DNA of 41,352 bases from Candidatus Poseidoniales archaeon (GTDB lineage: Archaea > Thermoplasmatota > Poseidoniia > Poseidoniales > Poseidoniaceae): assembly GCA_009887095.1 (NCBI GenBank), contig QXYC01000002.1, forward strand, positions 1-41,352. Reading direction: 5' to 3'. A model generated the notes under the pieces. It was not told the origin of the DNA. It saw nothing but the letters and a program-made list of their open reading frames with translations, and made no database searches. Each line of letters begins with the position of its first letter. The first letter of the stretch is position 1. Below, piece after piece: positions 4,005 through 31,382 of this stretch. The position numbers and the translations under genes are program-made.

Positions 4005-4091
4005 TGGGTGGCCTTTGGGGGTCAAAGAGTCCAATGCGAGACCTGCTTTGGAGGCGAAGTCTCTTTGAGACAAGACGACACCGCAGAAAGC

Positions 4092-6062
4092 ATGGCCAGA
4101 CCTCGTTTCGCCCAGACCGCCACCGCATTGACAATCGTGATCTTGTTTTTGTTCATGGCATCATCATCCTTTGTGACCTCCCCTTCGTTCGAAGACAGTA
4201 ACTCAGATTCCCAAACAAGTGCCCGCCAAGGCTCCCTCGATGTGGATTGTACAGGTTACAAATTCGAGGATCTTTTTGACTACAATTATGCCTCGTTCGA
4301 CATCCTCCTCGGCGATGATTGGGCAACGGCGCAAATGAGTGCCGTTGCATATGTCAACGGAAGCAACTCGGCCACGGTTCGTGAGAACCTCGACGAACTG
4401 TTCGATGGCACGCCAGGCGGCAACAACTCATGGATGAGCACGGACGAGCGTGAAGCTGTCCGAGCGATTGGCCCTGAGTGCATCGCCGACATGGACACGC
4501 GAATCGGAATCCGTGAAGGGCTGCCACATCGCGGCGGCGTCGACTGGAACGACCTCGAATTCGTCAAAGATGGCATCGCTCTCGACGAGGTGAACTTGGT
4601 ACCCGAAAACCATGCAGAAGAGCGAGATTGTCAAGACTTGCTTGCTTCGTCAGACTGCAAGGAAGTGCCAGTCACCATCACTGATGATCTTCAAATCCTC
4701 ATGTTCACCAAGGAAGATGAAACCCACAATGTTCGCTTTGACCAACTACCAAACAGCGGCTCGTCAAACTTCACGCTGGCCCTCAATGTAACAAACATGA
4801 GCAGCGCTGGGCTCGTGCTGACCTTCCCTCAACTCCAAGGCTTGCGCATGGTCAACTCCTCAATTCAAGACGATAATCAAGAAAGTACAGCCATGCCCGC
4901 ACCAGTGGCAGAGTACCTCCCCGATGGTCGACTTCGAGTCACTCAAGAAGTCAGTTACATGGCAAGCGAATACCCGATCATTCGAAATTTGTTCCTTGAT
5001 TTCACAACTCAAGCACCGGAAACAAACGAAATTCCAGAATGGACTGCTGACGCCCCTGTTGATGGGACGGTGATTCCATACACCGTCGGCACCCGAACCC
5101 TTGTTGACGGCGAAATCACTGCAGCCTGGGCCACCGATGACAGCGGTTGGGCCTTGGATTGTGACTTCGGTGAGCAAACGCCATCCGACCTGTGGACCGC
5201 TGGATTAACAGAAGACGGTGCCCTGTTCTTAGACGGACCAGATGCACCCGCTGCCGACGAGTCCGTGAATGCAGAATGCAGCGTCGTCGATCCATTCGGT
5301 GCGACATCTGTTGAGACACGTAACTGGTCCTTTGCACAGCCGTTCACAGCTGAGGCAGTGATTTCTGAAGCCGGCGATGCTGTTGAATTTACGGTGACTC
5401 CCACAGGTGCTGTCAGCGAACTTTCAATTAGCGCCCATGCACACCAATCCAACTCAATGGGGGAAATGCGCATGGCCACCCTTGCAACAGCACCTTCAAC
5501 ACTTGCCCTTCCAATGGATGGTCTCGGACCTGGCATGGTGATGGTCATGGGGCAAGCACAGTCGAGCGGCATGCTCGATTACGCTTTCATGCTCGACTTT
5601 GGACTGCAAAAGGCGAGTGCACCTCCAGTGATTGACGTAGATGTAAACCTCGACGGCACGAACGCCACTTGGGATGCAAGTTACCTCAAATTCACACTCC
5701 AAGGAAAGGTGCTCGATCCCGATGGTGAAGCAGTGGAGATGTCCCTCTCCTTGTGTGGCCGCACCACCAATGACTTTGTTCGATCTGGACCCGCTTGGGA
5801 AATCGATGTCAACATCGTATCTTGCTCTTCTCAAAATCCACCTGTGACTGTGTACGATATCACCCTCGTGGCCACAGACGAATCCGGAACGATGACCACC
5901 TTGCAAGTGATGGTTCCAGACCCCTATGCAGCCTCCGATGACGACCCTGTCTCAGAACCAGGTGTCGTGGATGAGGAAGGCCTACCAGCAGCCTCCCTGA
6001 TGGCAACATTGGCAGTCGCTCTGTTCGGGGCCGCTGTTGTAAGCAGAGGAAAAGACGAGTGA
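4092..6062 (+). CDS. Secreted or surface protein anchored at both ends
   Basis: A 656-residue protein with a hydrophobic N-terminal helix (about 10-28) and a hydrophobic C-terminal segment followed by RGKDE, so most of the chain should lie outside the cell, held by the C-terminal helix. The ectodomain is acidic, Asn/Ser/Thr-rich with several N-x-S/T sequons, and has paired cysteines spread along it. The second half contains repeated beta-strand-like stretches resembling immunoglobulin-like folds, but I cannot name a family. ATG 4092 is chosen because the hydrophobic signal follows it; the open frame extends to a GTG at 4008. It lies 87 bp after the ABC permease gene on the same strand, so it may be a partner or cargo of that transporter (inference only). 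Confidence 0.7.
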   Translation: MARPRFAQTATALTIVILFLFMASSSFVTSPSFEDSNSDSQTSARQGSLDVDCTGYKFEDLFDYNYASFDILLGDDWATAQMSAVAYVNGSNSATVRENLDELFDGTPGGNNSWMSTDEREAVRAIGPECIADMDTRIGIREGLPHRGGVDWNDLEFVKDGIALDEVNLVPENHAEERDCQDLLASSDCKEVPVTITDDLQILMFTKEDETHNVRFDQLPNSGSSNFTLALNVTNMSSAGLVLTFPQLQGLRMVNSSIQDDNQESTAMPAPVAEYLPDGRLRVTQEVSYMASEYPIIRNLFLDFTTQAPETNEIPEWTADAPVDGTVIPYTVGTRTLVDGEITAAWATDDSGWALDCDFGEQTPSDLWTAGLTEDGALFLDGPDAPAADESVNAECSVVDPFGATSVETRNWSFAQPFTAEAVISEAGDAVEFTVTPTGAVSELSISAHAHQSNSMGEMRMATLATAPSTLALPMDGLGPGMVMVMGQAQSSGMLDYAFMLDFGLQKASAPPVIDVDVNLDGTNATWDASYLKFTLQGKVLDPDGEAVEMSLSLCGRTTNDFVRSGPAWEIDVNIVSCSSQNPPVTVYDITLVATDESGTMTTLQVMVPDPYAASDDDPVSEPGVVDEEGLPAASLMATLAVALFGAAVVSRGKDE

Positions 6063-6121: not shown

Positions 6122-7441
6122 ATGTTTGCAGGCACCATTGAGTCGTTAAGCCACGAAGGTGGCCTGTTGGTGTCCTTTACAGGCTCCTCCCCAGCCCTCG
6201 AATCGATCATCATCAACCAAGCAACTGGTGATTACATCGGCAAGGTTGACGCCGTTCTTGGAAACACAAATGCACCCCTTGCGCACGTTGCTCATCTCGA
6301 CAGAAAACTCGACATTCCAAGCCTCGTTGGAATCGAAGTAAACATTCGACCAAAGAAGGTCAAGGAAGACCGAAACTTCGGCGACCGAAACAATGGTCGC
6401 AGCAACGACCGACGTGGAAACGATCGAGGTGGACGTTTCGACCGAAATGACCGTGGAGGTCGATTTGACCGAAACGATCGAGGTGGACGATTTGAGCGCA
6501 ATGACCGTAGAAACAACGGCGGTGATTGGGATTGCCCCAAGTGCAACAACAATAATTTCGCTTTCAGGGATGAATGCAACCGATGCGGCGAACCAAGAGG
6601 AAACGGTGGTGGCCGGTCAAACAACAGAGGATTCCAACGCCGAGACGACCGACGTGGTGGCGACCGATTTGGTGGCAATGACCGACGTGGTGGCGACCGA
6701 AGAGGAAACGACCGATCGAATAATCGAATGGATGGCGACTGGGATTGCCCCAAGTGCCACAACGACAACTTTGCATGGCGAACTGAATGCAACAAGTGTG
6801 GAGCGCCAAAGGCCGGTGGCCAAGGGCGGCCTCCTCGCAGAGACGACCGAAGAGGGGGTGACCGATTTGGTGGCAATGACCGACGTGGTGGCGACCGAAG
6901 AGGAAACGACCGACGGGGCGGAGAAGTGTTCAACGACAACGACTGGGATTGCCCTCAATGCAACAACTCCAATTTCGCATTCCGTCAGGAATGCAACCGA
7001 TGTGGATTGCCCCGTAGCGGCGGTCAATCCCGCCCTCGTCGAGACGATCGACGTGGTGGCGACCGTAATGGCGGCAGCAGATTTGGCGGCAATGACCGAC
7101 GTGGTGGCGACCGGAGAGGTGGCGATGACCGACGGGGCGGCGACCGAAGAGGTGGCAGCAGATTTGGCGGCGATGACCGACGTGGTGGCGACCGAAGAGG
7201 TGGCGATGACCGACGTGGTGGCGACCGAAGAGGTGGCGATGACCGACGGGGCGGCGACCGAAGAGGTGGCGATGACCGACGGGGCGGCGATGACCGACGT
7301 GGTGGCGACAGCCGACCTCCTCGTCGTGAACCTCGTGAACAACGCGAACCCCGGGAATTCCGAAAAGCTCGTGGCAAAGGATCTGGGCATGCTCACAACC
7401 GACCACCTCGTGATTTGATGGGTCGAGATCGAGAAGATTGA
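6122..7441 (+). CDS. Gar1-like H/ACA RNP protein with RanBP2 zinc fingers and RGG tail
   Basis: A 439-residue protein. Residues 1-80 align by eye with archaeal Gar1, the H/ACA RNP subunit that helps Cbf5 pseudouridylate rRNA: a GTIESLS start, then [11 protein letters not shown] (37-47), NAP (50-52) and a closing VGIEVNI strand (69-75). Three zinc fingers of the RanBP2 type follow at about 136-156, 207-227 and 275-295, each W-D-C-P-x-C ... N-F-A ... C-N-x-C-G. In known members this fold binds single-stranded RNA. Linkers and tail are Arg/Gly/Asp-rich ([21 protein letters not shown] repeats). Eukaryotic GAR1 has Gly/Arg-rich arms, whereas archaeal Gar1 normally lacks both arms and zinc fingers. 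GTGAGG before the ATG is the likely ribosome-binding site. The Gar1 call is the least certain part; an unrelated RNA-binding beta-barrel is possible. Confidence 0.72.
6370..7320 (+). repeat. Low-complexity repeats coding Arg/Gly/Asp
   Basis: Degenerate units built from GACCGACGTGGTGGC and GACCGAAGAGGTGGC recur through the linkers and are nearly perfect at about 7020-7315, where they encode DRRGGD. They create long open frames on both strands that are not genes. The unit number is likely to vary between strains by slippage. Confidence 0.8.
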
Positions 7442-7463
7442 ATTCGTGACGAAGGTGTGTCAA

Positions 7464-8501
7464 ATGGGCGCTGAAGAACACTACCTCGATGCAGTTGAAG
7501 CCTACGACCTTGGAAACCTCGAGGAAGCCTACAAATCTGCTCGCCTTGCTGTTAAAGAAGACCCCATGCATGTAGATGCTTGGCAATTATGCGCAGAGGC
7601 AGCCTTGCCTCCAAAGGGTGAGAAACCAACTCTGAAACAAACAGCTCAATCGCTGTCAGCAGTCAAGAAGATCATCGCCATTGATCCTGCACGAACTGCG
7701 ATGTGGTTCCTTGGAGGACGTTTGTTGAGCGACGAACTCGGATTGCTTGATGAAGCACTTGCTTGGTGGCAACAACTCCGTCACCACATGCCGATGGAAG
7801 TAACACCTTTGGTCGAACAAGCCACACTGCTTGCCGATATGGGACTTTACACAGAAGCACGGTATAGACTCGAAGCCATCACCGACGAGAACATGGACGT
7901 CAGTGGGCAACAGTACGCCAAGATTAGCCAACTTCACGGCATGGTCATGGCTGCTTCAATGCAAGACGAACGAGAATTCTTCAAGCCCTGGGAAAAGCAC
8001 CACAATGGCTGGGGTGCAATCGAACTGAAGATGAGGAAACCTCCAGTTTCCGAGAGTTTTCTCTTCATGACCACAACGGTCCCAATTCTGTTGATTGAGG
8101 TCCTGTTCTCAAATCGATTTGTCGAACAAGGATGGGGTGGATTCTGCCTTACGACCTTGATGATTTTCGCCACAGTGCTGATTGGAATGCGATTCAGCCG
8201 TCGCATCTTCAGGAGGGTCAACCGACCGGCGTTCAACCTATTGCGAGCAATGAATTTCGAAGCATCGAGTGGTTACGTCGTCATATCTGAAGACATACGA
8301 ACCTCGGTCCTCTATGTCTACATCATGCAACGCAAGCCAAAGGCATGGCAAGAGCGCATGCTGAAAATCATCGAAGACAACACAAAGCTCCCCGGTGGCT
8401 GGAAGCACAACCTGCCTGATTTTGAGTCCCACTTAGAGGATCTTGGATTTATCGAAGAAGCTGATGAAGAACATTTCCAACAATGGAATGAAGAAGAGTA
8501 A
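7464..8501 (+). CDS. TPR-repeat membrane protein
   Basis: A 345-residue protein. The first ~185 residues are helical with TPR-like repeats (for example ALxxxG/EEAYKSARLAVKEDP around 10-35 and LADMGLYTEARYRL near 125). Two hydrophobic helices follow near 198-218 and 226-246, then a ~95-residue cytoplasm-type domain ending in acidic residues. TPRs usually mediate protein contacts, so a scaffold role at the membrane is plausible, but no enzymatic motif is seen. ATG 7464 is chosen because GAAGGTG lies 7 bases upstream; a GTG at 7446 is in frame. It starts 22 bp after the Gar1-like gene and could be co-transcribed with it. Confidence 0.68.
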   Translation: MGAEEHYLDAVEAYDLGNLEEAYKSARLAVKEDPMHVDAWQLCAEAALPPKGEKPTLKQTAQSLSAVKKIIAIDPARTAMWFLGGRLLSDELGLLDEALAWWQQLRHHMPMEVTPLVEQATLLADMGLYTEARYRLEAITDENMDVSGQQYAKISQLHGMVMAASMQDEREFFKPWEKHHNGWGAIELKMRKPPVSESFLFMTTTVPILLIEVLFSNRFVEQGWGGFCLTTLMIFATVLIGMRFSRRIFRRVNRPAFNLLRAMNFEASSGYVVISEDIRTSVLYVYIMQRKPKAWQERMLKIIEDNTKLPGGWKHNLPDFESHLEDLGFIEEADEEHFQQWNEEE

Positions 8502-8691: not shown

Positions 8692-11600
8692 TCATTGCTG
8701 TGACTGAGCGTATTGGGCTGCGTATTGTTGCGCATACTGTGCCGCTGTCGCTTCATCATAGCCTTGCGCAACGAACTGCTGGTAGTACTGTTGGTACACC
8801 GCATTATCGGCCGCAGGGGCTGCTGCCGCTGCCGGTGCTGCTGCACCCGCTGCTTGAGCTGCATATTGTTGAGCGTAGGTCCGAGCTGTCTCCTCAGGGT
8901 ATCCCTGAGCAATGAGTTGCTGAACGTATTGTTCTGTGGCATCAAGTTGAGCAGATCCATAGCCGGCAGAACTTGCTGCGAAGTCCTTGATGGTGTCATC
9001 GCCGCCAGCGCCGCCTTTTCTAAGGAACACCAAACTGAGGATGACAATCAACAGAAGTCCTGCTGCTGCAAGACCAATGGTGGTCATGTCGAGGCCAGAA
9101 CTTGCTCCGTCTGAATCACCGGTTTGAGCAGGTGCAACCCATTCTCCATCCACAAGAGTCCATGCTCCGCTCCATTCACATTCACCGTCAGCGTTGAGAA
9201 TAAACTCGCCACCGGCTGCAATTGCTTCTGCACTTGCTTCGGTTCCCTGACATGCTGGAAGTTGGATTTCGATCCACTTGATGGTGACCCAACGTTCATC
9301 ATCGCCTTCGTAAATCTTGATGAAGATTCGCTGGCTTTGAGATTTGTTGGTGTACTTTCCATCGAGCGAGAGAGTAAGGTCGAAGGTTTCGGTGTCGCCC
9401 GTCTTGTCAGATCGGTCCCATGCGCCTGCAAGGCCAAGGTTGTACTTGTCCACTGCACTGGCTTCGAAATCAGATTCCACGAACGCTGCTTCAATGTAGA
9501 CATCGCCGTTTTCAGCTCCTGAAAGAACAGTACCTGTGATGGTCACACTGTCGGTATCAACACGGGAAGCGTTGAGTGATGCATCGAGTTGAACCACTGG
9601 TTCTTCATCCCCGAAGCCGTCTGGAACAACAACGAAGTACATTCGGTACTTCTCTGAGAACTTACCTGCCTTGTCGTAAACAATCAATTCAATTCTGATT
9701 TGGTTTTCTGTCGTACCGCTTGGGTCGACCGTGACGTTTCGGAAGGTGTAAGCCCATGCACCATCGCTTGCTGCATTTTGCTCAAAGGTGTGACCGTCAA
9801 GGCTGAATGAGTCGTCGCCGTATGGAGCGTCGAAGAGGACCTTCCATTCGTAGGTCTCGATGCCGCTGCCTTCAAGCGCATCCAAGTCAGAGGAATTGCT
9901 TGCATCAAAGTGGATGGTGACTTCACCGTCTTCATCAAGGATGATTCGGTTCACGGCCCATTCTGTGTTGGACACTGTCTTTGTACCAACATACTCAACG
10001 AGGTCAGAGTATTCATCTCGCATGTCAATCATGGCTTCAGCGGTTGGTCGGTATTCATCAGCGTAGACATCGTTGGTCTCAACGGTGACTTCGATGACAC
10101 GGGAGTGGCCTGCATCGTCGTGAAGCATGAGCGTGATGGTCCATTGCTCGCCTTGAGCGCAACCTGTGGCCGAAGAAAGGTCGACCTTACAGAAGTTCAT
10201 GACTGGCATGGCTTCTGTGGTGTGACCGCTCATTCCAGTCGCCATGGTTGATCCGTCCCAAGAGGTTGGTCCAGAAACAATCCAATCGGTGTGGAGGGTC
10301 TCGGTTGTGGTTGTGCTGTAAGAGAAGGTCAAATCTGCATCACTCTTCATGTAACGCAGTTCGTATCCACCTGTGCTCGGGTTAATGCCTGGCACTTGGT
10401 CGTTAATCTTCAAATCCAATCCGTTGCCGAGCGTTCCAAACCCTTCAGGGTAAGGTGTAACTTGGTAGGAGAGCATGTTTCCAAGCAGAGGCAAGGTTGA
10501 GCTGTCTGCTCGCTCTGAGTGAGTTGAAACGTCCATGGTTGAAACGATCATTCCGCCAGAGTAGTAACTGCACACACCAAGCACAGTGTCTTGGATGTCG
10601 TCAGCGTCTCGAATGAGTCGCTGGAAGTAGCCACCATCTTCCATGTAACCGTTGCAGGTAACGGGAACGTTGTTGGCGCTCACAGACTTGGTGTTCAAGA
10701 CCGCTTGTGCAACGGTGGAATCTGCATCAAATCCTTGGAAGGCGTTGAGGTCGACGTTGTCCATCAATGGGTGGTATGGATCAGCGAAGTCGGTGCTCGA
10801 GAAGTCAATTCGGGATTCCGGAGTGTTTCGGCTTTGGACGTCGAGGCCGAATGGCAAACGACCGTTGAGGCCTTGGTCAACACCGTAAATTTGGCTTCCT
10901 TGAGGTCCAAGGTGAGCTTGAATTGTTCCGCCAGCCGACATGAAGCCCTCGAGTGTGGTTCGGTGAGCAGTGGAACCCAACTTCTGATAGTAGCCACGTC
11001 CACCGTTCTCGATGTCCTTCGCAGCGATATCGTCTTGCCATGGCAACACAATCTTGTCGTAATGGGTGAACCATCCTGCGTCGAGGTAGGTGTCCCAGTC
11101 GTTGATGGTGTATTGCGTGTAAGACATGCCCAGTATGTTCAGGTCTTCCTTGATAGCAGTGGTTCGAACCGAGGTGTCGGAAAGAATGGCGACATCAACG
11201 TTGTCAGCAAAGGTTGCGTGGAAGTAACGGACGTTTCCAGATGGATTGCCGTTAGCCAATTCTGCATCAAAACTGATGTTGTAATCGTGGCCATCCATCC
11301 AACCGTTCCATGGGGTGAAGGTCACTTCGATTCGCTGGTGTGAGTCGAGGGTTTGAGATGGGCCAGCAGTGGTTGTATGAGCCATTGTTTGGGTGGTTTC
11401 GTCGAAGATGTTCATGTTGAAGACATAATCACCAGCAAGCACACCGTTTGTCGCTTGGAGAGCCCAATCGTGGGTGTATGAACTGTCAATTGGCATCACA
11501 CATTCGAGGACTTGATCGCTCAAGCAGCCGAGAACGTTTGGCTTACCCAGTGTAATGTCGACTGATTCAACATTGAAGATGACCCGTTCAATGTTGTTGG

Positions 11601-14600
11601 CTGTTGAAAGCTCTTGCACATTGTACCATGCAACACCTTGTGTCTGGTTGTCATAGATGGTTTCTGCTTCAATCATGTAGACGCCCGCAAAGAACTCGTG
11701 GCTAGCAATCGTGTCAGTGGAAGAATCTTCTGCATCGACATTGGTTCGAGAGATGGTGTATGAGTTATCTTCGATGAAGGTGTATTCTTGTAGAGAGATG
11801 TTGTTGAATGCAACGCCCTTGAAACCATCGTTGACACCATTACGTCCGTCATCATCCGACTGGAATTCAAAGTTGATGTCAACAACCGAGCCGGAGAGTG
11901 ACATGCACTCATAGCCCCAGTTGATGGAACTCGCATCTGAGGTATTGAGAACGTACAGGTGGGTCAAGTCAATCGAGGTTGTTGCAACAAGATCGTTTGT
12001 GTTGAAGAACACGTTGTAGTTTCCACCCGTTCCGTCTGTTGACGAATCATCACCAATGTAGGAGATTTCAGCATTGTCAATTGGTTCCGATGCATTGACG
12101 ATGTTGTCACCGTTCTCATCGATTTGACAAGTGCCGTCTTCGTTGTAATCGTTCCATTGTCCGACAAGAACACCAGAGTAGGTTGCCCCATCGCGAAGAA
12201 TGTCGAGGGTCATTGCAGCGTAGTCATTGACGTCAACGATGGATGTTCCATCTGAGTCAATGCCGTAGAATGTGTCTGCGTAATACTCGAAATTCAAGGA
12301 GACGAAATCGCCGCTCATCGAGGTCAAGTCGATGTCAGGGATGGTGAGGGTTTCGTTTGCCCATGCATCGCCGTAGCCGTTTGCACCTGTGTCACAAGGG
12401 TGGCCGAACCAGTACGCATTGTTGTTGAAGATCGTGTCTTGGCAAGTGGTTTCATCGTAAATGACACCCTTTGGGTTAGCGCTTTCGGTGTATCGGTAAC
12501 CGTTCGCTCCACCTTCAAAGTCTTCTTCACACAGAGCGTTTGGTGTACCACAGTACACATCGGAAGGCGTGGCTGAGAAGACGGTTGCCTTCACATCAAA
12601 GTCCATTTCGGTGTTTCCGAAGTTGTTCGTGGTGACATCGATGTCGAACAGACCTTCTGCATAAAGACCGCCAGGATTGAAGTAATCGATGCCTTCAATT
12701 GTTGGGTCGTAGAGGTTGAACGGCGTGATATAGCCGACGAGTTCATCGTTTTGTGGCTGCTCATCCCAGGAGTTTCCAGAAAGGCTTGCAGAGATTCGGT
12801 ATGTTGTATCGTTGAGCAAATCTGCGCTGATCGAGGTTGTGTATTCTTGCCCTGGCCCAAGGTTGTTGAGATTGATGGTTGATTGCTGAATTTGTGGGTT
12901 CGCAAGGAACGCAGTGTTTTGCTTCCAGATGGTGAGGTTGTCAACAGCGTAACCATCTCGTCCGGACCATCGGCTTTCGTTATCATTGGAGATTGAGCCC
13001 TCGAATCCTGTGCGGAATCGGAATCGAACGTCAACAGTTTCGCCAGCCCATGGGCTGAGGTCGAATGCACCGACGCCTTCTTCGGTGAAGTTGCTCCAAC
13101 CGTAGTTGGTTCCAAAGGAGTAGACGCCGTAGTAGTAGACGCCCTCAGCAACACCGCCGATCGCTTGCTTGTATTGGCGGTCGAGATCGAAACCACCCCA
13201 CATCGAGGTACCTGAGGCACAAGCCCCGTTGATGTAGGCTTCTTGTGGACAGGAGATGACATCCCATCCAGACTCTTCGCTTCCGATTTCAATGAGAGCG
13301 ATATCATCCCAAACATCGCCTGCGATGAAATTCCCCGTTGCGTCAGCGTTGCCGAGCACACCATGTCCGAGGTGCCGGAACAATTCGACGCTCATGAACG
13401 CCCGGTCTGAGCCAGTAAGATCAACATCCTCGAGGACCATTGCATCGTCCCAGTTGCTGTCGTACCCAGACCACAGGTCACCGGACGAATTTGTCTTGTA
13501 ATGTCCAGCCCACATGAAGTCAGTTGGGTTGAGATAGTTAGCAGAGACGTTTGGATCGTTGTTTCCATCAGAAGCGCCTTGGGAATGGTTGGTTTCTTCG
13601 TGCCACTTGGTTGCTTGATCGATGTACTCTTCGTACGCCCATGCGCAACCTGAACCACATCCGGTTTTGTCTTCAGGACTGTCCCAGTCCATTTGATAGA
13701 CAGTGCTGTTGGTTGAGGCTGCTTCATCGACAATCTTCAGTTCCAAGTCAAGGGTTGCAGATTGGCCGTTGAGAATGTCCATTCCAGTGTTGGTAACGGT
13801 CACGTTGATGTCACGGGTTCCTTCCCCAACGATGCCGAAGAAGTTGTCAGTAGGGCTGATTTCAAGCGAAGAAACTGAAAGGTCCTTGCTGTCCATTTCT
13901 ACAACTGTCAGTGTATCGTACTGACCATCCCATCCAAAGTTGTCCACCCAACTGCCGAAGCTGTAACTTGTGTGGCCCACAACGATGTCAAGGGCTGAGT
14001 TCGATGCACCTGCGAGTTGACCGACTGAAACCATGCTTGGTCGACGACCTGCCTCGTAGGAGAGCGGGGTCAAGTGGCCGCCGCTTCCGTCAGACAAGGT
14101 CACCTGAACGGTGGTTGGGAAGTTGAGGAAAAAGTTGGAAGTAGTACCACCTGCGGAGTCACTGCTGTTTTGTTGGTAAGCAATCGTAGGATTGACGAAG
14201 TCGGGCTCACCGTCATTGTTGAGATCCGTTATTGTAACGGAGTAGGAGATGTAGGGTCCGAAGTAAGCAAGGGCAGGCGTCGACCATGTGCCGACTGCAG
14301 AGGAGGTGACAAAACTGACGTTTTCCACGTTTCCATCGTTGAGCACCATGGCATCAATTTCCCCGTTGCCATCAACATCACCGATGTCGAAATCGTTTGC
14401 GAAGTCAACGTTCAAGTTGACGATGCTGGTTGCTGTCTGAGGAGAAACGATGTTGAAGTTGTAGGTTGCAGGATAGGTGTTTGTCAAGCAAGAGAATTCA
14501 ACGATCGAAATGTTGTCGCTTTTTCCAGGATTCGTAACTTGATTTGTAGCATAATCGAGGCCTTCTGAACGAAGGAGGTAGATGTCGTCATCCGTGCATG

Positions 14601-15345
14601 TGCCGCTAAGGCCACCGGTTTCAGTTTCTCCATGATCGCCGACTTCAAGGCTCCTGTACGCATTTTGGTTGGAAGGGCCAAGGGTCGTGATTGCGCCTTG
14701 TGTACCGGAGTTGATTGGTCCACGGTAGGTCACGACACGCTGGGAGGAAAGATCGCTGAGCAAGTCAAGAACGTAGACATCGTCGTTTCCGTCTTGGTCT
14801 GCATCGCCAACGGCGAGGTCCCAAGCCCAGAAGTGAGTGAATCGTTCGCCAATGCTCCATGTTTTCTCGCTGCATCCGCCGTTTTCGATGATGGTGATGT
14901 TCCCCGGTTGCCCAGCTGGGTTACCGGCATCATCGGTCCTGAATGGATTGTTGCGCTGGAAGATCACGATGTCGTCGGCTCCGTCTCCAGTGAATTCACC
15001 GACCTCGATGAACTGAACATTTGAGAATTCATCCCAATCTGCGTTTCGGCTTTGGTTCGCAGAAACCCAGATATCTTGTCGTTCGCTGAAATCACCGTTT
15101 CCATCGTTCCACAGAACGGTGATGGTGTGGGTTCCTTCAGTGGCCACTGCCATGTCGTTGAAACCGTCACAGTTGAAGTCGCCAATAGCGACATCCAACG
15201 GGTCACGGTTGGTTGTGTAGGATCGTGCAATCGAAGCACTTGCGGTTGTAGCAAGAGCTGCGGTGGTCGACAAGACCATCAGCATGACGAGGAACATGCT
15301 GAGGGCGCGGCTGTTATTGTGGTTGTTTTTGGAGAACATCAACAT
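8692..15345 (-). CDS. Giant FG-GAP surface protein with C-terminal membrane anchor
   Basis: A 2,217-residue exported protein. It starts with a signal peptide (hydrophobic stretch about 16-38). FG-GAP/VCBS-type calcium-binding repeats follow in the first ~400 residues, such as GDFNCDGFNDMAV, GDADQDGNDDVYV, GDVDGNGEIDAMV and TDLNNDGEPDF. The middle holds CARDB-like beta domains and jelly-roll-like segments. A flavodoxin/amidotransferase-like alpha-beta domain lies in the third quarter (from VDVAILSDTSV), followed by more beta-rich repeats. One membrane helix (TTIGLAAAGLLLIVILSLVF) lies about 110 residues from the end. The cytoplasmic tail carries two copies of a helical motif, AQGY-x-E-x-TA-x-x-YAQQYAAQ. 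A role in adhesion or polymer binding is likely but unproven. ATG 15345 is chosen; an ATG at 15339 and a GTG at 15372 are alternatives. Confidence 0.88.
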   Translation of the reverse strand: MLMFSKNNHNNSRALSMFLVMLMVLSTTAALATTASASIARSYTTNRDPLDVAIGDFNCDGFNDMAVATEGTHTITVLWNDGNGDFSERQDIWVSANQSRNADWDEFSNVQFIEVGEFTGDGADDIVIFQRNNPFRTDDAGNPAGQPGNITIIENGGCSEKTWSIGERFTHFWAWDLAVGDADQDGNDDVYVLDLLSDLSSQRVVTYRGPINSGTQGAITTLGPSNQNAYRSLEVGDHGETETGGLSGTCTDDDIYLLRSEGLDYATNQVTNPGKSDNISIVEFSCLTNTYPATYNFNIVSPQTATSIVNLNVDFANDFDIGDVDGNGEIDAMVLNDGNVENVSFVTSSAVGTWSTPALAYFGPYISYSVTITDLNNDGEPDFVNPTIAYQQNSSDSAGGTTSNFFLNFPTTVQVTLSDGSGGHLTPLSYEAGRRPSMVSVGQLAGASNSALDIVVGHTSYSFGSWVDNFGWDGQYDTLTVVEMDSKDLSVSSLEISPTDNFFGIVGEGTRDINVTVTNTGMDILNGQSATLDLELKIVDEAASTNSTVYQMDWDSPEDKTGCGSGCAWAYEEYIDQATKWHEETNHSQGASDGNNDPNVSANYLNPTDFMWAGHYKTNSSGDLWSGYDSNWDDAMVLEDVDLTGSDRAFMSVELFRHLGHGVLGNADATGNFIAGDVWDDIALIEIGSEESGWDVISCPQEAYINGACASGTSMWGGFDLDRQYKQAIGGVAEGVYYYGVYSFGTNYGWSNFTEEGVGAFDLSPWAGETVDVRFRFRTGFEGSISNDNESRWSGRDGYAVDNLTIWKQNTAFLANPQIQQSTINLNNLGPGQEYTTSISADLLNDTTYRISASLSGNSWDEQPQNDELVGYITPFNLYDPTIEGIDYFNPGGLYAEGLFDIDVTTNNFGNTEMDFDVKATVFSATPSDVYCGTPNALCEEDFEGGANGYRYTESANPKGVIYDETTCQDTIFNNNAYWFGHPCDTGANGYGDAWANETLTIPDIDLTSMSGDFVSLNFEYYADTFYGIDSDGTSIVDVNDYAAMTLDILRDGATYSGVLVGQWNDYNEDGTCQIDENGDNIVNASEPIDNAEISYIGDDSSTDGTGGNYNVFFNTNDLVATTSIDLTHLYVLNTSDASSINWGYECMSLSGSVVDINFEFQSDDDGRNGVNDGFKGVAFNNISLQEYTFIEDNSYTISRTNVDAEDSSTDTIASHEFFAGVYMIEAETIYDNQTQGVAWYNVQELSTANNIERVIFNVESVDITLGKPNVLGCLSDQVLECVMPIDSSYTHDWALQATNGVLAGDYVFNMNIFDETTQTMAHTTTAGPSQTLDSHQRIEVTFTPWNGWMDGHDYNISFDAELANGNPSGNVRYFHATFADNVDVAILSDTSVRTTAIKEDLNILGMSYTQYTINDWDTYLDAGWFTHYDKIVLPWQDDIAAKDIENGGRGYYQKLGSTAHRTTLEGFMSAGGTIQAHLGPQGSQIYGVDQGLNGRLPFGLDVQSRNTPESRIDFSSTDFADPYHPLMDNVDLNAFQGFDADSTVAQAVLNTKSVSANNVPVTCNGYMEDGGYFQRLIRDADDIQDTVLGVCSYYSGGMIVSTMDVSTHSERADSSTLPLLGNMLSYQVTPYPEGFGTLGNGLDLKINDQVPGINPSTGGYELRYMKSDADLTFSYSTTTTETLHTDWIVSGPTSWDGSTMATGMSGHTTEAMPVMNFCKVDLSSATGCAQGEQWTITLMLHDDAGHSRVIEVTVETNDVYADEYRPTAEAMIDMRDEYSDLVEYVGTKTVSNTEWAVNRIILDEDGEVTIHFDASNSSDLDALEGSGIETYEWKVLFDAPYGDDSFSLDGHTFEQNAASDGAWAYTFRNVTVDPSGTTENQIRIELIVYDKAGKFSEKYRMYFVVVPDGFGDEEPVVQLDASLNASRVDTDSVTITGTVLSGAENGDVYIEAAFVESDFEASAVDKYNLGLAGAWDRSDKTGDTETFDLTLSLDGKYTNKSQSQRIFIKIYEGDDERWVTIKWIEIQLPACQGTEASAEAIAAGGEFILNADGECEWSGAWTLVDGEWVAPAQTGDSDGASSGLDMTTIGLAAAGLLLIVILSLVFLRKGGAGGDDTIKDFAASSAGYGSAQLDATEQYVQQLIAQGYPEETARTYAQQYAAQAAGAAAPAAAAAPAADNAVYQQYYQQFVAQGYDEATAAQYAQQYAAQYAQSQQ

Positions 15346-15442
15346 CACTGCTTCGGCCAACGCCCGTTGCACTTTAATTGCTTTGCTCTAAAGTTCATTA
15401 TTGTCTTCCACACCTTCGCCCGCAGTACCCCATTTAGGGCGA

Positions 15443-29650: not shown

Positions 29651-31297
29651 TCATTTGTTCCCTTTGGGGCCACGGTTGAAGCCACCTTTCGAGGGCCTGT
29701 TGTTTCGATTGGCTTGGCTTTTGCCAAAGCCTTTCTTTGAGTTCTTGGAAGGTTTGTAGGTTTGGCCTCGTGCCTCGCCTCGGTATCCCTTAGAGGAACC
29801 ACCGGAACCACGGTCGTTCGACCTTGAATCATTACCACCGCTGCGGTTGCTGTCACGGAATCCGGATCGTCCACCGCTGTCGTTGCTTCGACCACCACGG
29901 TAGCCTCCACCACCGCCGCTTCGACCTCCGCCGCCGCCTCGGCCGCCACCACGGTAACCACCGCCACCGCCGCTTCGACCACCGCCGCTTCGTCCACCAC
30001 CGCGGTAACCTCCGCCACCACCGTTTCGACCACCGCTGCTGTATCCACCTCGACCACCGCCGCTTCGACCACCACCGCGGTAACCTCCGCCACCGCCGTT
30101 TCGTCCGCCCCCAGCGTATCCGTTTCGGTTTTGTTCACGGGAACGGCGATCTGCCGCAATGTAAACCACTTCGAATTCAGGAAGTATTGAGAATTCTGGA
30201 GGCATGAACTCGACGTTGATTCCTACATCGCGTTGAATGCGAACATAGGATCGCTTCTGAGGGCGTTGTACGAGCGAGACGACAACACCTGAAGCGCCAC
30301 CGCGAGCGGTTCGACCACTGCGGTGCTTGTACGCCTTACCGTTTTCTGGAGGATCGTAGTGAATGACACAATTCACGCCAGCCACGTCAATACCACGAGC
30401 AGCAACATCTGTTGCAACGAGTGCCATGCATTCTCCGTGTTGGAAACGCTCCATGGCTCTGTCACGACCGCGTTGTGTCAACCCACCGTGGAGCGTTTGA
30501 ACGGCCATGCCGTCGTAGGTCAGATCGTCGCCAACTCTGTCGACTCCAGCGCGGGTGCGGCAGAACACAATGGTTCGTCCACACTTGCGAATAAGTTCAG
30601 CAGTGATGTCTGGTTTCTTGGAGTTGGGCATCAACCAAAAGTGATGAGTCATGCTTTCCATGCTGACTTCCTTTGGTCCGACTTCGATGGTGACAGGATC
30701 GATTTGGTAATCACGAACAAGGTCAGCAACTTCGTCATCGAGGGTGGCGCTAAACAAGATGGTCTGTCGGTCCTTTTTACATGCGTCAAGAATCTCGCAG
30801 ACGGGTTCCATGAAACCCATGTCCGCCATTCGGTCTGCTTCATCAAGCACAACCACTGAAACATCATCAAGCGAGAGAGAACCTCGCTCCATCAAATCAA
30901 GCAGACGCCCAGGGCAAGCCACAAGCACATCGACGCCACGGTCAAGGGCGCGGAATTGCTTCTTGTACGAAACGCCACCATACATTGCTTCGACATACAG
31001 TTTCAAGTCGTAGGCAAGGGGATCGAGAACCTTGTAAATTTGTTCTGCCAGTTCACGGGTTGGCGTAAGAATGAGCGAAGTCGGTCGGCGTGGTTCTGCC
31101 TCAGTGGTACGAGAAAGGAGAGGAAGTCCGAATGCGAGGGTCTTTCCAGAACCCGTTGGCGCTCTGCAGCAGACGTCTTTTCCGAGCATGGCATCAGGAA
31201 TTGACTCCCGCTGAACTTCGAACGGTTCAAGGATGCCTTGCGTTTTTAGAGCATTCACCAATACTGGTTCGATACCCAAGTCACTGAACGACACCAT
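29651..31297 (-). CDS. DEAD-box RNA helicase with RGG-rich tail
   Basis: A 548-residue ATP-dependent RNA helicase. The core has the Q motif (FSDLGI ... FEVQ), motif I APTGSGKT (46-53), PTRELA, DEAD in VVLDEADRM, SAT in LFSATLDD, and the C-terminal RecA motifs ATDVAARGIDV and HRSGRTARG. From about 394 to the end lies a 155-residue tail of repeated GYRGGGR/SGGG units, then a basic Lys/Asn/Arg end. Such tails bind RNA and can promote condensates in known helicases. GGGGTG lies 6-7 bases before ATG 31297; the open frame extends to 31363. It follows the thiolase gene on the same strand by 85 bp. Role in ribosome assembly or RNA decay is likely but not resolved. Confidence 0.93.
   Translation of the reverse strand: MVSFSDLGIEPVLVNALKTQGILEPFEVQRESIPDAMLGKDVCCRAPTGSGKTLAFGLPLLSRTTEAEPRRPTSLILTPTRELAEQIYKVLDPLAYDLKLYVEAMYGGVSYKKQFRALDRGVDVLVACPGRLLDLMERGSLSLDDVSVVVLDEADRMADMGFMEPVCEILDACKKDRQTILFSATLDDEVADLVRDYQIDPVTIEVGPKEVSMESMTHHFWLMPNSKKPDITAELIRKCGRTIVFCRTRAGVDRVGDDLTYDGMAVQTLHGGLTQRGRDRAMERFQHGECMALVATDVAARGIDVAGVNCVIHYDPPENGKAYKHRSGRTARGGASGVVVSLVQRPQKRSYVRIQRDVGINVEFMPPEFSILPEFEVVYIAADRRSREQNRNGYAGGGRNGGGGGYRGGGRSGGGRGGYSSGGRNGGGGGYRGGGRSGGGRSGGGGGYRGGGRGGGGGRSGGGGGYRGGRSNDSGGRSGFRDSNRSGGNDSRSNDRGSGGSSKGYRGEARGQTYKPSKNSKKGFGKSQANRNNRPSKGGFNRGPKGNK
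29860..30120 (-). repeat. Gly/Arg coding repeats in helicase tail
   Basis: Tandem degenerate units reading CGGTAACC, CCTCCGCCACC and CGACCACCGCCG on the plus strand encode GYRGGGR and SGGGR. They generate long spurious frames on both strands. Copy number is likely variable between related genomes. Confidence 0.7.
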
Positions 31298-31382
31298 ACA
31301 CGCACCCCGTTCCATCCCGCCGTCCGACCCTATTTGAAACCCACAGTAGGAATAATCGCCCATTCCTGTGGCTCAATTGGAA

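Follow-up and report, generated by a model that had tools for sequence, protein, structure and literature searches.

Is a protein that joins a Gar1-like barrel to zinc fingers and a repetitive, arginine- and glycine-rich arm the Gar1 of an archaeal H/ACA ribonucleoprotein (RNP), and what would such appended parts do for the particle? The gene that raises this question lies in a 41,352-nt stretch of Poseidoniales DNA (hereafter the window), which belongs to contig 12 of an assembly of 1.48 Mb and 68% completeness. The features of its locus are collected in Table 1. Within the 439-residue product, Pfam recognizes the three RanBP2-type fingers that the earlier note had read from the sequence (E = 5.2e-24; 83.6 bits against a cut-off of 27), each a classical C-x2-C-x10-C-x2-C (C4) unit. 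Residues 85–439 are 26% R and 22% G, and the whole protein holds 16 DRRGGD units and 21 RGG triplets; 7 different codon strings encode the 16 DRRGGD units, so the repeats are not exact copies of one another at the DNA level. The note had the fingers and DRRGGD repeats following the barrel. Both are present, but R/G-rich sequence also lies ahead of the first finger and between the fingers rather than only trailing them. At the extreme C-terminus, beyond the fast-changing RGG tail, the motif FRKxRGxxxGHAHNRxP recurs in 27 of the 34 same-genus orthologs that include their 3′ end, with a near form, identified by eye, in 3 more; the pattern occurs in none of the 30 sister-family orthologs with a 3′ end, 2 of which are masked.

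Table 1 Features of the gar1 locus, with positions in the window; counts for the neighbours refer to the 53 parsed loci that exceed 3.4 kb
Feature	Position	Strand	Extent	Basis or remark
Upstream neighbour	4008..6062	+	684 aa	Homolog at gar1 locus in 52/53 loci
gar1: Gar1 barrel, three RanBP2-type zinc fingers and Arg/Gly/Asp-rich arm	6122..7441	+	439 aa, ATG start	ORF translation, Pfam
Gar1 domain, six-stranded barrel (predicted)	6122..6370	+	Residues 1–83	Profile, fold and bridge evidence
R/G/N/D-rich linker, barrel to first finger, with FDRNDRGGR repeats	6371..6520	+		Sequence; tandem repeat 6417-6508, period 27
RanBP2-type zinc finger 1	6524..6586	+	Residues 135–155	Pfam, Cys pattern; closest solved finger FUS 6g99, E 6.2e-6
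RanBP2-type zinc finger 2	6737..6799	+	Residues 206–226	Pfam, Cys pattern
RanBP2-type zinc finger 3	6941..7003	+	Residues 274–294	Pfam, Cys pattern
DRRGGD-repeat tail	7028..7357	+		DRRGGD count; tandem repeats 7049-7309
C-terminal motif FRKxRGxxxGHAHNRxP, conserved	7358..7417	+		Ortholog pattern match
Downstream neighbour, TPR-like	7446..8501	+	351 aa	Homolog at gar1 locus in 42/53 loci

The earlier note took the first 80 residues for a Gar1 β-barrel, and profile and fold searches agree with that assignment, with Pfam by itself remaining below threshold. The Pfam Gar1 model gives E = 0.041 (14.1 bits) against the whole protein and E = 0.0015 (18.7 bits, residues 21–86) against the N-terminal 93 residues alone, below the curated cut-off of 29.3 bits. 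For the family as a whole, we aligned 52 N-terminal domains drawn from 86 parsed orthologs with a 92% identity filter; Pfam Gar1 matches 47 of these 52 at E ≤ 0.1, the next family matches 3, and the leading NCBIfam Gar1 model matches 44 at E ≤ 1. A search of the PDB with the family profile puts four chains annotated as gar1-like, or as similar to gar1, at ranks 1–4 (E = 0.039–0.17), unrelated proteins at ranks 5–7 and yeast Gar1 at rank 8, E-values that are not significant alone yet are consistent with Gar1. The AlphaFold model of the barrel (pLDDT 89.2, pTM 0.77) has the predicted fold of Gar1, a comparison that the note had proposed. Foldseek ranks 1–15 are small chains from entries for Cbf5–Nop10–Gar1, the H/ACA RNP, telomerase H/ACA or the Gar1 domain of Naf1, as judged from entry and chain size; the best match is 2ey4_D (TM 0.73/0.82, E = 1.5e-3), and no match has E ≤ 0.001.

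A bridge search through the phylum connects the family to recognized Gar1 genes. When 20 Thermoplasmatota loci that carry an over-cut-off Pfam Gar1 were searched in all six frames with the family profile, the Gar1 frame came out best in every case, with E < 0.1 in 19, the E-values referring to a small search space. The Pfam cut-off itself is reached by no ortholog (0 of 99 genomes). Of the genomes with a Gar1 match, those that exceed it number 2 of 4 among the named control archaea and 62 of 229 across the phylum, and therefore we treat it as an operational threshold and not as a biological bar. As an arbiter of barrel identity, the single-sequence Pfam score left the matter unsettled; the family profile, fold and bridge searches settled it. 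A chance match, in which the barrel would belong to an unrelated small-barrel RNA-binding protein, would account for the sub-threshold single-sequence scores and for the barrels unrelated to Gar1, in many cases ATP synthase subunits, that fill the Foldseek list from rank 16 onward. Pfam, NCBIfam, the PDB profile search, the fold search and the phylum bridge nevertheless agree with one another, and this reading, already disfavoured, is hardly credible. By homology, predicted fold and genome context, the N-terminal barrel is Gar1.

The genome context is that of a single gar1 accompanied by its H/ACA partners. The note had suggested looking for a separate, canonical gar1, whose presence would have counted against its reading. 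None appears in the window genome, even at E 10 in a Pfam Gar1 search of the 68%-complete assembly, nor across the full set of 99 genomes, which comprises the window genome and 98 relatives and includes a one-contig relative, 96% complete, in which only this gene was found. An ortholog is present in 88 of the 99, as one copy per genome apart from one gene divided over two contig ends, and in 17 of the 19 genomes with completeness of 90% or more and contamination of no more than 5%. It was not found in the other 11, including 2 of those 19; we tentatively attribute these cases to incompleteness. Pfam Gar1 matches 74 of the 99 genomes at E ≤ 0.1, once per genome and at the position of the ortholog, contig and place having been compared by eye. 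One genome of the same family but another genus (G188) has two Gar1 matches, on contigs C37 and C38, with fingers on the same contig as each, from either a duplication or mixed strains.

The Cbf5 encoded by the window genome has 322 residues, with TruB, DKCLD and PUA domains, and its best match among solved archaeal-type Cbf5 structures has E = 1.1e-70. Its thumb loop keeps the SAVK sequence, including V149, which the available text of one study describes as critical in the P. furiosus Cbf5 thumb loop (PMC4551948); the positions of P. furiosus R146 and R151 both read V. Nop10 was found in 55 of 59 genomes, the window genome included, and the window genome has two L7Ae-family genes. Rfam and tRNA scans of the window returned two tRNAs and nothing else. 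As judged from sequence, the 439-residue protein is the one Gar1 of these Poseidoniales, in a genome with Cbf5, Nop10 and L7Ae.

The gene also keeps its place. The downstream neighbour starts 4 bases past the gar1 stop, and its TPR match is weak here and over the Pfam cut-off in a homolog. The upstream neighbour has no Pfam match at E 0.01 and, by eye, looks secreted or membrane-like. This neighbourhood is common to both families of the order, with no evident link of the neighbours to RNA modification. Because the neighbours are shared, the long and short forms of gar1 are the same gene, and the common locus ties the 439-residue protein to sister-family proteins of 145–379 residues. Further along the window, on the minus strand (8692-15372), lies a very large predicted protein of 2226 residues with a membrane-like stretch and an Ala/Gln/Tyr-rich tail at its end. 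Copy number and locus bear on the reading that the protein descends from Gar1 but has left the H/ACA particle to act as a free, FUS-like RNA-binding protein. Its barrel sequence is far from canonical Gar1, and the GPV of the Gar1 loop is replaced by GNT in the window protein and survives in no more than 7 of the 52 aligned N-terminal domains, as might be expected of a departed protein. It is, however, the sole gar1 candidate and nearly always single-copy, Cbf5 and Nop10 are kept, and shorter copies occupy the same locus in the sister family; we consider a free protein very improbable.

The survey of related genomes that the note had called for shows how widespread the architecture is. We counted features in 60 complete, unmasked orthologs, scoring C-x4-C variants as well as classical fingers. 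All 60 possess an arm rich in R/G or R/K, with R+G making up 26–59%, and 46 of the 60 carry one to four RanBP2 fingers. In the same genus, every complete ortholog (32/32) has one to four fingers and the arm, measured from residue 85, spans 176–448 residues, a few rows (G015, G021 and G052) having ends that look frame-shifted or cut. In the sister family, half (14/28) have one to three fingers and half (14/28) have none, with arms of 61–295 residues; fingers are thus dispensable for Gar1 function there. Four of the fingerless orthologs, all of genus g2 (G059, G073, G083 and G086), contain a looser Cys pattern with other spacing, which in G059 is, by eye, a different short ribbon.

Elsewhere in the phylum, the 19 frames printed from the 20 bridge loci stop at the barrel or after a short basic tail, and five of these short Gar1s belong to a different order of the class (family f3). 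Some longer Gar1 frames also occur in the phylum, for example in G115, G129 and G381. The short Gar1s in that order and elsewhere in the phylum support an independent origin of the arm, in line with the independent route that the note had envisaged. These comparisons support an arm that would have arisen within the Poseidoniales lineage, with part of the sister family lacking fingers but keeping a basic arm. A gain and loss tree built from the upstream neighbour covers 45 of the 86 parsed loci and has faults: one row (G075) is 14% filled and another 27% filled, G004 is labelled fingerless solely since its gene is masked, and there are long branches. In this tree the fingerless genus g8 adjoins the fingered g6 (98/99). 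Since the fingers are alike in both families, the best reading of g8 is finger loss, the alternative being a separate gain in g6.

Divergence between relatives gives the same picture for barrel and fingers. In 8 of 13 relatives compared in a purifying-selection test, pS is 0.21–0.64 and pN 0.005–0.095 for the barrel, and the corresponding values for the first and last fingers are 0.23–0.89 and 0.015–0.074; in the other 5 relatives, the barrel has saturated pS (0.77–0.92) and pN of 0.17–0.26. Purifying selection thus looks to act on both barrel and fingers. We considered whether the RGG-repeat region is a frame or repeat artefact and rejected this; overlapping long frames exist, but the plus-strand frame has low pN/pS and orthologs. 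The extension on this Gar1 is real, selected and widespread.

What kind of finger does the arm carry? A PDB search with finger 1 gives FUS as the best solved match (6.2e-6), together with ZNF265/ZRANB2 and RBM10. We number the RNA contacts by what we take to be the ZRANB2 residues D68, N76, W79, R81, R82 and N86. In the available text of a published account, the ZRANB2 contacts with GGU include D4, N14, a stacked Trp, R19, R20 and N24 (PMC6384913); we map these, in that order, onto the six residues just named. With a finger pattern that demanded the first Trp and four Cys and left the contact residues free, we collected 147 classical fingers from 62 of the 86 orthologs. All 147 keep D, N, an aromatic residue (F/Y) at position 79, R82 and N, the fingers within one gene being duplicates and hence the 147 not independent cases. 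Position R81 is occupied by F in 113 fingers, by R in 18, by W in 15 and by K in 1; according to the accessible part of the same account, FUS and EWS have W at this position and still read GGU (PMC6384913). In the eleven C-x4-C variant fingers, K takes the place of R82. From these residues we infer that the fingers would bind single-stranded GGU-type RNA.

RanBP2-type fingers do not all bind RNA; those of NZF type bind ubiquitin, and a Thr-Phe pair is a feature of ubiquitin-binding NZF fingers. The fingers could accordingly bind a protein in place of RNA, such as a ubiquitin-like modifier or a ribosome assembly factor. The finger 1 search also lists fingers of Nup153, TAB2/TAB3, MDM2 and RanBP2 (E = 0.003 and weaker), and ZRANB1 is named in connection with RanBP2-type fingers and ubiquitin in the available text of PMC6384913. 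The best matches are nevertheless the fingers of FUS, ZNF265/ZRANB2 and RBM10, and the three window fingers lack the Thr-Phe pair while keeping the RNA-contact set, which makes protein binding quite improbable as the role of the fingers.

Strong RanBP2 fingers are nearly confined to this order. At E ≤ 0.001 the RanBP2 model matches 89 of 248 genomes of the phylum, and it exceeds the cut-off in 38, of which 37 belong to this order; of the 50 other genomes with a match outside the order, just one is over the cut-off. This sole over-cut-off finger outside the order, at 2900-2983 of contig C2 in G102, sits in a 465-residue frame away from the gar1 of that genome. Every RanBP2 match of the window genome (three) and of the one-contig relative (two) lies inside gar1. 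At least nine matches fall on a contig other than that of gar1, eight where gar1 is cut at a contig end and one in G002, and for the other genera of the family the assignment of fingers to gar1 rests on matching contigs. Such near-confinement suggests that the fingers serve a specific use.

We propose that the Poseidoniales Gar1 has probably grown into an RNA-binding component of the H/ACA RNP, adding capture of single-stranded GGU-type RNA to the particle. The N-terminal barrel would dock on the catalytic domain of Cbf5 and work its thumb loop as in other archaea, a step based on homology, fold and the finding of Cbf5, Nop10 and L7Ae genes. In the H/ACA particle, Gar1 that binds Cbf5 and its thumb loop aids both catalysis and product release. 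The arm, flexible and rich in Arg, Gly and Asp, would extend out of the particle, and its one to four RanBP2 fingers would each take a single-stranded GGU/GGN triplet through the ZRANB2/FUS residues observed in them, with the disordered RG tail possibly making weak, general RNA contacts. Together, fingers and tail could hold pre-rRNA or guide near the active site and so raise the local concentration of substrate. Two reports from yeast, each cited here from the available part of its text, concern the eukaryotic arm: removal of the Gar1 RGG arms has unlike effects at the two hairpins, taken by the authors as a pointer to contact between arm and substrate (PMC8096250), and Gar1 reduced to its central domain is sufficient for growth (PMC7991803).

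RG tails elsewhere in the organism qualify how much of this is peculiar to Gar1. A DEAD-box helicase of 570 residues, encoded on the minus strand of the window (29651-31363), ends in a Gly/Arg-rich tail of 165 residues (406–570; 41% G, 16% R). Since the helicase shares this feature, the tail by itself may be typical of the organism in general. A search with the repeat tail as query in 4 genomes returned gar1 alone in 2 and nothing in the other 2; since it missed the helicase tail of the window, it is no proof of rarity for RG tails. No fibrillarin turned up in the 68%-complete window genome, and in the one-contig relative its open frame has 242 residues and hence no long arm. The reading of the note is weakened by the helicase tail and by the absence of fingers from half of the complete, unmasked sister-family orthologs.

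The helicase also bears on a plainer reading, in which a normal Gar1 acts in the H/ACA particle and its arm and fingers are generic RNA glue, an RNA chaperone trait without GGU selection or substrate steering. A Gly/Arg-rich tail on a second protein would suit this, as would the wide variation in arm length and finger number and the sister-family genera that live without fingers. The GGU contact residues, however, persist in every classical finger while the linkers differ in length and sequence, and we think generic glue possible but rather unlikely. A bolder reading holds that the H/ACA particle of Poseidoniales independently acquired the ability to read single-stranded rRNA, by way of FUS-type GGU fingers on Gar1, and that the RG arms of Gar1 and the DEAD-box helicase gather it into a nucleolus-like ribosome assembly condensate; we regard it as speculative and doubtful. 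Our preferred reading remains the enlargement of Gar1 into an RNA-binding subunit.

We found no earlier description of a Gar1–RanBP2/RGG architecture in archaea in the open-access literature, as judged from titles and the starts of abstracts, and an RNA-binding-type arm appended to Gar1 would, by its sequence, be new relative to the open-access sources searched. The presence of the arm in the examined orthologs of both families of a marine order suggests that growth of a Gar1 arm is not purely eukaryotic. Fingered and fingerless related genera at the same locus also form a natural series, with which the contribution of arm and fingers to RNA-guided pseudouridylation becomes testable.

Compared with known systems, the protein combines familiar parts in an unfamiliar way. 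It shares with canonical archaeal Gar1 (P. furiosus; 2hvy and 2ey4) the barrel domain, the single copy and the presence of Cbf5, Nop10 and L7Ae partners in the genome. Canonical archaeal Gar1 is, however, a bare barrel (a 104-residue chain in 2hvy), whereas the 60 complete Poseidoniales orthologs add an arm of 61–448 residues and zero to four fingers. Eukaryotic GAR1 shares the central domain and the RG-rich arm after it, but it carries Gly/Arg arms on both sides, whereas the Poseidoniales barrel begins at residue 1 and bears a C-terminal arm only, of DRRGGD type and rich in Asp and Asn, unlike the eukaryotic arm. To our knowledge, eukaryotic GAR1 has no zinc fingers. The earlier note had called known archaeal Gar1 proteins small and armless, and a 2021 review agrees, in its accessible part, that the Gly/Arg arms of eukaryotic GAR1 are missing from the archaeal protein (PMC7991803); a 2021 study, in the text available, calls the role of the eukaryotic arms elusive (PMC8096250). 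An archaeal protein with a RanBP2-type finger is known in Sulfolobus ArnA, a module of archaellum (motility) repression; as described in the available text of PMC6509490, it has a single finger and an FHA domain with no Gar1 domain reported, in contrast to the fingered Gar1 of Poseidoniales. Closest in their fingers are FUS, EWS and ZRANB2, whose RanBP2-type units are likewise C4 fingers with the GGU-reading set of D, N, aromatic, R and N. FUS also pairs its finger with RGG stretches. The Poseidoniales protein differs from these three in having no RRM and in carrying its fingers on an H/ACA subunit, and its C-x2-C finger differs from the C-x4-C finger of FUS.
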